Assembly (NCBI RefSeq): GCF_001276715.1
Contig: NZ_LIUQ01000006.1
Location: forward strand, 86,748-150,747
Length of the DNA stretch: 64,000 nt
Direction of reading: 5' to 3'
Origin: Planktothricoides sp. SR001
GTDB taxonomy: Bacteria; Cyanobacteriota; Cyanobacteriia; Cyanobacteriales; Laspinemataceae
A program made the translations under genes and the position numbers. Below are positions 153-29,395 of this stretch, piece after piece; within the stretch, counting starts at the first letter, position 1; every line of letters begins with the position of its first letter. The notes under the pieces are model-generated. The model was not told where the DNA came from, searched no databases, and worked only from the letters and a program-made list of their open reading frames with translations.

Positions 153-827
153 TTACCGATAAGGCAACGGATCCGATAAGCCCAATTCAGCAAAAGCCGC
201 TAACCGCAATTGGCAGGAGTCACAGACCCCACAAGCTTTTTCCTCTCCGGCATAACAAGACCAAGTATGTTGCCAAGGGACGCCCAATTTATTGCCTAAT
301 TGAATAATTTCGGTTTTGTGCAACTCCAGTAAGGGGCTGATAATAGCGATCGCCTGTCCTTCGCGACCTTGTTTTGTCCCCAGACGAAACACTTCCTGCA
401 TCGCTTGAATGTAATCTGGGCGACAATCGGGATATCCCGAATAGTCCAAAGCATTGACCCCAATATAGACTCGTTCGGCAGCGATCGCCTCCGCATAAGC
501 CAAAGCAAAACTGAGAAATATCGTATTTCGGGCTGGGACATAAGTCACCGGAATTTGACTTGCCATTTCCGAGAGCGATCGCCCTTCCGGCAAATCAATC
601 CCATCATCGGTTAACGCTGACCCCCCCCACTGCCGCAAATCAAAGGTAATCACCTGATGGGCCACCACTCCTGCGACCCTCGCGATCGCTGCTGCCGAAT
701 CCAACTCGCGGCGATGCCGTTGTTGGTAATCAAACGAAATTGCATAACATTCACAACCATCGGCCTTCGCTTGATACAGCACCGTCGAGGAATCAAGTCC
801 TCCCGACAATAAAATGACTGCTTTCAC
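153..827 (-). CDS. queC: 7-cyano-7-deazaguanine synthase QueC
   Basis: QueC converts 7-carboxy-7-deazaguanine, ATP and ammonia to preQ0 in the queuosine (tRNA wobble base) pathway. The 224-residue protein is normal length. The N-type ATP pyrophosphatase loop SGGLDSS is at residues 8-14, and the C-terminal zinc site is complete with Cys191, Cys199, Cys202 and Cys205 (CX7CX2CX2C). The ATG start gives the standard family N-terminus MKAVILLSGG. No other queuosine gene is adjacent, so it appears to be a single-gene unit. Confidence 0.96.
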   Translation of the reverse strand: MKAVILLSGGLDSSTVLYQAKADGCECYAISFDYQQRHRRELDSAAAIARVAGVVAHQVITFDLRQWGGSALTDDGIDLPEGRSLSEMASQIPVTYVPARNTIFLSFALAYAEAIAAERVYIGVNALDYSGYPDCRPDYIQAMQEVFRLGTKQGREGQAIAIISPLLELHKTEIIQLGNKLGVPWQHTWSCYAGEEKACGVCDSCQLRLAAFAELGLSDPLPYR

Positions 828-1120
828 GGATTTTCCTGTTAATACATTACAAATAGATCGGAATCTTTGGGATATATTACCAATTACTGATTAATCACAA
901 CCACCTGATGCCTTGGGCGCTGCGGAAAAAATCAGCATAAATACTCATCAACCAGCCCATTAGTCCCTTTGCTTAATATTTATTCACAATAATAACCGTA
1001 AATACCCTCTAATTTGATGCAATTTGTATCTTTTTGCAAAATTACTTCATATCTTTTTTGGGAAAACTTCGCTATAGTAGAAACATCGATAAAAAATCAA
1101 AGAAATCAAAGGTAATTATT

Positions 1121-27587: not shown

Positions 27588-28073
27588 ATGAGCGAAACAA
27601 TTCACGACCTTACCGTTAAGACCATCGCCGGGGAAGATAAATCCCTCAAAGACTATGCAGGCAATGTATTGCTAATTGTTAACTTAGCTTCTTACTGCGG
27701 CTATACTCCTCAATATGCTGGTCTGGAAAAACTGCACCAGAAATATAAAGATTCTGGCTTACGGGTCTTGGGATTTCCTTGCAATGATTATGGTGCCCAA
27801 GAACCAGGAACTAATCAGGAAATTGTCCAATTCTGCACCAAAAATTATGGTGTTACTTTTGATCTCTTTGATAAAGTTCATGCCAAAGGGTCGCAGCAAC
27901 ATCCCCTTTATACTATGTTAACCAGTCAGGGCAAACCACCGGGAGATGTTTCTTGGAATTTTGAGAAATTTCTGGTTAATAAAAAAGGTGAAGTGGTAGG
28001 GCGCTATCGTAGTAGCGTCACCCCCGAGTCAGCGGAGTTGACTGGGGCAATTGAGCGAGAATTGCACCAGTAA
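27588..28073 (+). CDS. Glutathione peroxidase family protein (Cys type)
   Basis: A thiol peroxidase of 161 residues. The active site reads NLASYCGYTPQY, with Cys in place of selenocysteine, followed by GFPCNDYGAQEPG and WNFEKFLVNKKG, which supply the Gln and Trp of the catalytic triad. Cyanobacterial members reduce lipid hydroperoxides using NADPH or thioredoxin. The ATG start follows a short AT-rich promoter region. It appears to be a single-gene unit. Confidence 0.93.
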   Translation: MSETIHDLTVKTIAGEDKSLKDYAGNVLLIVNLASYCGYTPQYAGLEKLHQKYKDSGLRVLGFPCNDYGAQEPGTNQEIVQFCTKNYGVTFDLFDKVHAKGSQQHPLYTMLTSQGKPPGDVSWNFEKFLVNKKGEVVGRYRSSVTPESAELTGAIERELHQ

Positions 28074-28215
28074 TTTTGTTATTGGTTGTTAGTTATTAGT
28101 TATTAGGGGCTGTTGGTTATTAGGGGTTGTTGCTCTCGAATAACCAATATCTAATAACCAATATCTAACAACTAATATTTAACAACCAATATTTAACAAC
28201 CAATATCTAATAAAA
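28074..28215. repeat. AT-rich short tandem repeats (TTGTTAGTTATTAG / TAACAACCAATAT)
   Basis: The first half carries GGTTGTTAGTTATTAG-like units and the second half the complementary CCAATATCTAATAA units, so the whole can fold into a long imperfect hairpin. Related arrays occur at 24431, 36300, 44838, 45310 and 46770. No gene seen. Confidence 0.8.
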
Positions 28216-28225
28216 AATACCTAAA

Positions 28226-28293
28226 GATCAGAAAGAGCACCGACGACTGGCCGTGTTTCGTCTCGGTGCTCTAACTGGTTCGCTCCTCACACT
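28226..28293 (-). ncRNA. Candidate small RNA with own promoter and terminator
   Basis: On the minus strand a promoter-like pair stands 7-10 bases before a short sequence that ends in a GC-rich hairpin. The hairpin arms are AGAGCACCGA and TCGGTGCTCT (10 perfect pairs) and are followed by TTCTGATCTTT. The predicted transcript is about 70 bases with a 5' single-stranded part containing GTGAGGAG. The reverse strand of that part reads CTCCTCACAC, close to the Yfr1 core, but its structure there does not fit Yfr1. A 20-codon frame starting at GTG also spans it. Expression is inferred only. Confidence 0.45.
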
Positions 28294-28299
28294 AATCGC

Positions 28300-28329
28300 A
28301 GTATAGCGAATAGTTACCCGATTTGTCAC
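28300..28329 (-). promoter_or_regulatory. Sigma-70-like promoter of the candidate small RNA
   Basis: Read on the minus strand, GTGACA (28324-28329) and TATACT (28300-28305) are separated by 18 bases. They match five of six -35 bases and five of six -10 bases of the consensus. No protein gene starts downstream in a suitable place. Confidence 0.5.
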
Positions 28330-28402
28330 CCCCTTGGGCAAAAATTATCAAGTTTTTTTCGAGTCTTGGGAGGAATTTTTTGCTTGTCTGATGGTTCGGT
28401 GG

Positions 28403-29395
28403 TTACATCTCTTGGGGGGGCAAAATCCCTAAACCTTTTTCTAGTAAGAGTTTTAAGACAATTTGCGTGGTTAAAATTAAGCCTAATCTGGCTTGTGCCA
28501 AAGCCAAATTTTCGGTTTTAATTTTGCTCCAGATGGGATTGGCAGCATAAAATATAAGTAAATCTTGACTTAAATCAGTGGCTAATTTCACCATAAGCTT
28601 GGTGACAATCTCACTTTTGCAAGTTGAGAGGGTATCTAGGGTCGTGATTAATTGGGAAATTAGGGTGCGTTCCGTTAGGTGGATCGGACGCAGTTGGTTT
28701 CGATCGCTTAACCAGGGGATAGGATTGGGGTTGATAATTTGCAGATCGGTGCTATGTTCCGACAAGCTGGACTCAGACAGGCTGATTAGTTGCTCCCGAT
28801 CGCCCAAGCGCAGCAGCGAGCAACATCGAGCGTGGGTGTATTCCAGTAGAAAGAGATTATTTGTGAGATTATTTGTGGCATCCAATGTGGCATAGATTTT
28901 TTGCCAGTTTTGACTTTGGTGTGGGTTCTCTGAACCGTGAGTTTGGCTGGGCCATTGGCTGAGACGTTGCAACCAGGTGGCTAACCCTGGTTCGCTGAGA
29001 TGGAATTGAATCCAACCGTCACGAATATGAACGGTGAAATCGGGGGAAGGCTCGATTAAAGAACCGATCGCCTCGGCAATTTCTGCCGGGGCTTTTTGCT
29101 GGGCTTTTTCCTGGGCTTTTTGCAGGGTCTTTTGCAATTTGAAGGCGATCGCGGAAATATAGATGACTTTTTCTACGTCTTTGGTGCGGTTTAATGGCAT
29201 CGTTGAGGGCGTCAATATTGGCATTTGATTGTCAATAGCAGGCGATCGCGTTGCTAACAAATAATCAGAGGTGGCATTGATTAAGCGATCGCAAAATCGC
29301 GATTTCAGGGAGAATAAATCAATCGCTGCCCAAAATTCCTCTGGCCACTTTTGGGCATGGCTGGCCAAATTATCTTGATTCTGTGATTTATTCAT
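28403..29395 (-). CDS. Stand-alone DALR anticodon-binding domain protein (ArgS C-terminus-like)
   Basis: The C-terminal half of this 330-residue protein has the all-helical DALR domain found at the end of arginyl-tRNA synthetase: FLLEYTHARCCSLLRLG and RLGLILTTQIVLKLLLEKGLGILPPQEM-type end. The N-terminal half has no HIGH or KMSKS motif and no Rossmann catalytic core, so it cannot be an active synthetase. Such proteins are present in cyanobacteria, with unknown role; tRNA binding is the obvious guess. ATG start near an AT-rich region. Confidence 0.82.
   Translation of the reverse strand: MNKSQNQDNLASHAQKWPEEFWAAIDLFSLKSRFCDRLINATSDYLLATRSPAIDNQMPILTPSTMPLNRTKDVEKVIYISAIAFKLQKTLQKAQEKAQQKAPAEIAEAIGSLIEPSPDFTVHIRDGWIQFHLSEPGLATWLQRLSQWPSQTHGSENPHQSQNWQKIYATLDATNNLTNNLFLLEYTHARCCSLLRLGDREQLISLSESSLSEHSTDLQIINPNPIPWLSDRNQLRPIHLTERTLISQLITTLDTLSTCKSEIVTKLMVKLATDLSQDLLIFYAANPIWSKIKTENLALAQARLGLILTTQIVLKLLLEKGLGILPPQEM

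Follow-up and report, generated by a model that had tools for sequence, protein, structure and literature searches.

A Yfr2-family (Cyano-1) small RNA on the minus strand of a Planktothricoides sp. SR001 contig

Background

Yfr2 RNAs are known from almost all cyanobacteria. They form a described and expressed family (PMC2662882, PMC6778093, PMC6974561) characterised by the Cyano-1 motif (PMC8400943). In the available portions of PMC2662882 its members appear as abundant separate RNAs whose conserved 5' end is unpaired and whose long stem carries a 12-nt loop and, 4 nt away from this, a bulge; the stretch between both conserved motifs is described as unconserved. The available portions of PMC6778093 report that Yfr2 and Yfr1 bind one another, that Yfr2 lifts the repression exerted by Yfr1 in an E. 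coli reporter and wins in competition against an mRNA target, and that Yfr2 bound by Yfr1 is protected from cleavage by RNase E. In the same source Prochlorococcus Yfr2 pulled down 404 peaks on 302 mRNAs plus many antisense RNAs, so that Yfr1 need not be its sole partner. For Nostoc, gel shifts show an interaction of Yfr2 with Yfr1 (PMC6974561). As far as the excerpts of both sources go, yfr2 genes are said to occupy unconserved loci (PMC6778093) and to lack synteny (PMC2662882).

We have analysed a stretch of 64,000 nt from Planktothricoides sp. SR001 (the window; "own genome" refers to the same assembly). The minus-strand element at 28226-28329 is real and is a Yfr2-family (Rfam Cyano-1, RF01701) small RNA, that is, not a new candidate but a member of an already known family. 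It shares with Yfr2 the single-stranded 5' GUGUGAGGAG tail (28292-28283), a long stem with a bulge 4 nt from its 12-nt GAAACANGG loop, compensatory changes that maintain the helix, a predicted promoter of its own with conserved hexamers and complementarity to Yfr1. Yfr2 is described as accumulating separately at about 80 nt; the RNA predicted here has about 68 nt. The element differs from Rfam Cyano-1 in that it scores under the cut-off and falls in a subclass with a conserved CGAAC flank, inner stem and synteny. Yfr1 (RF01116), which bears the pyrimidine motif between two stems, is a different RNA and the complementary partner of the element.

Results

Anatomy of the element

The features are the following (types A and B are defined below).

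28324..28329, minus strand: -35 box GTGACA; type A loci keep (T/G/A)TGACA
28300..28305, minus strand: -10 box TATACT; begins at -13 from GTGTG in 59 of 81 type A loci
28226..28293, minus strand: yfr2 (Cyano-1, type A) small RNA, predicted transcript, from cmscan with RF01701, our model R1 and covariation
28283..28292, minus strand: 5' tail GUGUGAGGAG (DNA GTGTGAGGAG), exact complement of the Yfr1 core CUCCUCACAC
28278..28281, minus strand: GAAC, predicted by cofolding to pair with Yfr1 GUUC beyond an A.C mismatch (C28282)
28229..28277, minus strand: hairpin, all parts; 16 pairs, two-sided changes in 12
28277-28275 with 28231-28229, minus strand: outer helix
28272-28260 with 28247-28234, minus strand: main helix with bulge G28244
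28248..28259, minus strand: 12-nt loop GAAACACGGCCA with the family motif GAAACANGG
28223..28234, minus strand: interrupted U tract, likely terminator tail, judged from the sequence
28403..29395, minus strand: arginyl-tRNA-synthetase paralogue with N-terminal and DALR domains, catalytic domain apparently missing; 330 codons

The two boxes named in a first-pass annotation of this DNA, GTGACA (28329-28324) and TATACT (28305-28300), are present with the 18-base spacer that it gave, and so is its perfect ten-base hairpin (28272-28263/28243-28234, 6 of 10 pairs G-C), followed by TTTCTGATCTTT. Past the one-base bulge at 28244, three further pairs (28262-28260/28247-28245) lead to the 12-nt loop. Transcription is predicted to start 7 nt past the -10 box, and GTGTGAGGAG would lie at or beside the 5' end of the transcript; the 3' end is uncertain, around 28223-28229. 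Because the U tract is interrupted, we treat the hairpin as a putative terminator only. It was absent from the output of the terminator scan, since its loop exceeds the limit of that scan. The single strand folds moderately better than shuffled sequences (z -2.24), with GUGUGAGGAG unpaired in the 69-nt form and partly paired with downstream bases in the 77-nt form. Between 24000 and 33000 we found 18 promoter-like sites against 16.3 ± 4.3 in shuffles, and on composition alone the promoter match is no better than chance.

The element is flanked by a glutathione peroxidase gene (27588-28073, plus strand) and by the 330-codon ORF at 28403-29395, whose end lies 74 nt before the -35 box on the same strand; the earlier statement of a minus strand free of nearby protein genes is thus mistaken. 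The stretch 28078-28224, from the glutathione peroxidase gene to the yfr2 3' end, holds AT-rich tandem heptamer-like repeats (GTTATTA; AACCAATATCTAAC).

Family assignment

At Rfam gathering scores nothing matched anywhere in the window. With a relaxed threshold, cmscan placed RF01701 at 28296-28229 (39.4 bits, E 1.7e-5) over all 69 model positions, the sole credible Rfam match within 28100-28450. The score falls 1.6 bits short of the gathering score of 41 bits, which we treat as a limitation of the cut-off because 19 of 20 loci of the same subclass also lie below it. Membership was accepted despite this because the structure, the conservation and the defining features of the family are all present. 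The own genome has one good yfr2 copy.

A Yfr1-like RNA on the plus strand, which carries CTCCTCACAC and folds well (z -4.23), was considered and rejected. That sequence merely complements the Yfr2 5' end, the own-genome Yfr1 lies elsewhere (62.6 bits), and the promoter and the loop are on the minus strand. RF01116 gave no match at E <= 10 in the stretch searched, and the pyrimidine core CTCCTCACAC is found there on the opposite strand only.

Conservation, covariation and promoter

The check for conservation in related genomes that had been proposed came out in favour of the element, with blastn matches in 47 of the 59 genomes searched (the own genome among the 59) and a hairpin that covaries. 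In an alignment of 55 distinct sequences (A1), 98.2% of the cells were paired in the named structure and two-sided changes were found in 12 of its 16 pairs (84 such cells). None of 500 shuffles reached this covariation and slid structures had 34-60% of cells paired, a control that somewhat favours the named structure since this was drawn from one of the A1 sequences. The 5' tail is invariant in A1, but its motif also helped to select most of the A1 loci.

The promoter is conserved as well. Upstream of 81 type A loci the best -35/-10 pair had a mean score of 9.94 of 12 versus 6.75 in a control taken another 60 nt upstream, and TGACAAA occurred in 42 of the 81 regions versus none in the control. 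This conservation raises promoter and hairpin above a chance pattern and, with the covariation and the family membership, bears out the original proposal of a small RNA that has a promoter of its own and a hairpin at its 3' end. Blastn against phages and plasmids gave no match to the element. Three pattern matches in viral contigs (L157-L159) lack the Yfr2 fold and were taken as chance, so that viral carriage through them was discarded.

Two subclasses of Yfr2

A pattern combining the two Yfr2 motifs was found in at least 118 stretches of genomes with titles; of the 80 such stretches listed, 77 were cyanobacterial and three (Nocardia, Pleomorphomonas and Natrinema) we read as chance. Sorting these loci, together with those of the relatives, by rules of our own gave 85 of type A (after removing two duplicates of the window copy), 65 of type B and 25 others, which include chance matches. 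This sample is biased, since about one third of the type A loci were found by similarity to the window and both exact motifs were required throughout. Type A, the form in the window, reads GUGUGAGGAG-CGAAC, ...CCGAGAC-loop-GUCGUCGG..., and type B reads GGGGUSGAAACACGG...ACUCCC and often comes in two or three tandem copies. CGAAC follows GAGGAG in 81 of the 85 type A loci; among the 65 of type B there is one UGAAC, and common words are CAAGU and UAAGU. Arrays of three type B copies within about 1 kb were seen at six loci (L039, L051, L054, L057, L069 and L132; Nostoc-like loci and others).

Our type A covariance model (R1), which gives 100.8 bits to the window copy (itself included in the model), matched in 250 of 290 genomes of the class at E <= 0.01, the lower-scoring of which need not be type A. 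Among 20 listed genomes without a match, 19 belong to one family of small genomes (f34), apparently Prochlorococcus and marine Synechococcus. The two-motif pattern itself occurred in 229 of the 290 genomes, and its reversed control once overall. Only 1 of 20 type A loci passes the Rfam gathering score, indicating that routine annotation misses most of the subclass. There thus appear to be two kinds of Yfr2, one syntenic and with a consensus-like promoter, the other variable and often in tandem. Apart from the original description of the family (Gierga 2009), the placing of the window RNA in a type A subclass with conserved stem and 5' flank looks new.

Synteny with a synthetase-like protein gene

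The neighbour in the window belongs to an ORF family that precedes the RNA on the same strand in 68 of the 85 type A loci (8 of the other 17 have at most 1500 nt of upstream sequence), at a distance of 54-250 nt in 67 of the 85, and in none of the 65 type B loci or the 25 others. The other flank is poorly kept, with glutathione peroxidase in three loci only (L001, L002, L124). In the class sample, counting the best 150 places of each search (type A model and protein), 99 genomes had both a type A RNA and the lone protein among the matches listed. The RNA follows the gene on the same strand within 65-758 nt in 80 of them, both are apart on one contig in 7, and 12 have them on different contigs. 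Six of the 150 protein places had been excluded by hand, five being frames of at least 600 codons, probably the synthetase itself, and one having four stops; a place with a single stop was retained. The linked cases span 15 families (counted by eye). The lack of synteny stated in the excerpts cited above does not hold for type A, and its conserved synteny looks new. Our literature search found no reported link of Yfr2 to DALR or to arginyl-tRNA synthetase, and nothing on DALR anticodon domains with cyanobacteria.

In Pfam the window protein matched only DALR_1 (PF05746, 39.5 bits); among 51 aligned relatives DALR_1 was found in 45 and Arg_tRNA_synt_N in 18. The NCBIfam argS model gave 43.5 bits against a cut-off of 261.65, and in a profile search of solved chains 9 of 9 were arginyl-tRNA synthetases. 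In the predicted structure (pLDDT 88.7, pTM 0.88), residues 26-330 align with an arginyl-tRNA synthetase over the whole span of the enzyme (best Z 20.0, rmsd 4.5, 256 of 590 aligned); Foldseek gave no match under E 0.001, and its top entry, at 0.0038, was arginyl-tRNA synthetase. With about 250 residues fewer than that enzyme, the protein seems to lack the catalytic domain, and it may best be described as an arginyl-tRNA-synthetase paralogue without it. Its mRNA, in the window copy, has no GAGGAG-like site just before the start codon that would make it a target of Yfr1.

We know of no partner of the cyanobacterial protein. The closest described likenesses, at the domain level, are human DALRD3 and other lone DALR proteins, which like the neighbour have the anticodon-binding DALR domain of arginyl-tRNA synthetase without the enzyme. 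In the available part of PMC7237682, DALRD3 works with a methyltransferase, together with which it binds arginine tRNAs, indicating that lone DALR proteins can be RNA-binding adaptors.

Yfr1 and its predicted pairing

We located six exact occurrences of the 10-mer CTCCTCACAC in the own genome. One of them complements the window element and another is Yfr1 (RF01116, 62.6 bits, E 1.2e-10), between guaB and trxA, which is its usual location according to the excerpt of PMC6778093. Two places are the complement of GTGTGAGGAG just before start codons (L033 and L035), which makes these mRNAs predicted targets of Yfr1 and competitors of Yfr2. The last two read CTCCTCACAC, one within the coding sequence of tuf (L034) and one at L037. 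The L033 site (C15:59619) belongs to a 375-codon ORF that we read as a Gfo/Idh-type oxidoreductase, and the L035 site (C87:76343) to an ORF of at least 498 codons. At L037 there is an IsrR antisense RNA (RF01419, 121.4 bits; 753-930, minus strand), opposite an ORF which we take to be of the CP43/IsiA type. Yfr1 was found in all 59 genomes of the relatives search (56 above cut-off) and in 281 of the 290 class genomes (274 above cut-off).

The purine-rich GTGAGGAG had been proposed to pair with pyrimidine stretches of mRNAs. The chemistry of this proposal stands, but the best-supported partner is Yfr1, through its core CUCCUCACAC. Cofolding the predicted 69-nt RNA with the own-genome Yfr1 gave a gain of -21.8 kcal/mol, which none of 500 shuffles reached (-5.5 ± 2.9 kcal/mol). 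By plain duplex energy, which leaves self-folding aside, the pair does not stand out, 123 of 500 shuffles being as low. The best pairing has 10 bp, the A.C mismatch and four further pairs (Yfr1 GUUC with GAAC); replacing GAAC by a word that cannot pair weakens it by 6.6 kcal/mol (from -21.2 to -14.6). Two type B tails reach -19.8 and -21.3 kcal/mol through other pairs, so this extension gives type A no greater strength.

In one set of 26 listed Yfr1 copies GUUCA precedes CUCCUCACAC in every one; over all the copies listed, those outside f34 have GUUCA and those in f34 other flanks, mostly CACA. Coevolution of Yfr1 and Yfr2 over the 4-bp extension was considered and dropped, since the flank change in f34 would count as a single event in the tree at most, and Yfr1 has kept GUUCA in lineages where type A copies have lost GAAC (L213, L215, L216). 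A pairing of the loop GAAACA with UGUUUC in the first stem of Yfr1 was also set aside, the f34 Yfr1 copies listed having no UGUUUC. In two f34 genomes (L202, L203) the strand opposite Yfr1 shows a second Yfr1-like core CTCCTCACAC flanked by GTGTGAGGAG, both strands thus bearing core and anti-core in one palindrome-like stretch.

The cyanobacterial endosymbiont of the diatom Epithemia turgida (NZ_AP012549.1) is non-photosynthetic. It has one type A and one type B Yfr2 (L048, L079) and also keeps the synthetase-like neighbour and Yfr1 (61.6 bits). If both RNAs are truly kept without photosynthesis, the pair would serve something else.

Discussion

The element is very probably a yfr2 gene with a consensus-like sigma-70 promoter whose RNA of about 68 nt ends in a 3' hairpin and sequesters Yfr1. 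The promoter would drive an RNA beginning at or next to GUGUGAGGAG, the hairpin with its 12-nt GAAACANGG loop would probably also terminate transcription, and the single-stranded 5' end would pair with the CUCCUCACAC core of Yfr1, which would then be kept from blocking ribosome-binding sites. Sequestration, published for Prochlorococcus and supported by the gel shift in Nostoc, is the best-supported action. Expression, binding and competition presumably carry over from these relatives to Planktothricoides, in whose own DNA the sequence, structure, conservation, Yfr1 and the predicted pairing were observed.

Yfr2 could also act mainly by direct pairing of its loop or tail with mRNAs and antisense RNAs, with Yfr1 mainly protecting or inactivating it. 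The 404 peaks on 302 mRNAs, the many antisense RNAs and the protection from RNase E (PMC6778093, in excerpt) fit this reading, as does the conservation of a loop motif that is dispensable for pairing with the Yfr1 core. We consider it unlikely, however, given that the tail exactly complements that core, that Yfr1 is nearly universal and that Yfr2 relieved Yfr1 repression in the reporter assay of the same source. Far less probable is that the hairpin mainly terminates the mRNA of the synthetase-like gene, the small RNA being a by-product. Such a role would explain the synteny, on the same strand and 54-250 nt downstream in 67 of the 85 type A loci, but a separate and strongly conserved promoter lies between gene and hairpin, a terminator needs neither the conserved 5' tail nor the loop, type A also occurs without the gene, and Yfr2 is elsewhere abundant as separate RNAs (PMC2662882, in excerpt). 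Mere coincidence of a functionless promoter-like site with a hairpin would agree with the lack of enrichment of such sites between 24000 and 33000 (18 versus 16.3 expected); it is refuted by the conservation, the covariation, the family match and the conserved promoter, and we give it practically no credence.

More speculatively, type A Yfr2 and the adjacent paralogue could form an RNA-protein pair, in which both tRNA-contacting domains would bind the conserved Yfr2 hairpin roughly in the manner of a tRNA and the protein, as chaperone, stabiliser or sensor, would set the free Yfr2 available for Yfr1 sequestration, coupling arginine or nitrogen status to the Yfr1 regulon. We regard this as rather doubtful. 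Against binding of the hairpin, the lone protein is absent from the matches listed for 47 of the 146 genomes in which a type A match is listed, and the Thermosynechococcus copy without the neighbour (L100) shares the core stem and the loop. An inherited neighbourhood, or the Yfr2 hairpin ending the upstream mRNA, explains the synteny without binding. If the pair did exist, cyanobacteria would have recruited an RNA-binding protein of the tRNA world to serve a regulatory RNA.

Taken singly, the element is a known small RNA that was overlooked by automatic annotation here. The wider value lies in a syntenic Yfr2 subclass that is largely invisible at the Rfam cut-off, next to an uncharacterised tRNA-synthetase-like protein.
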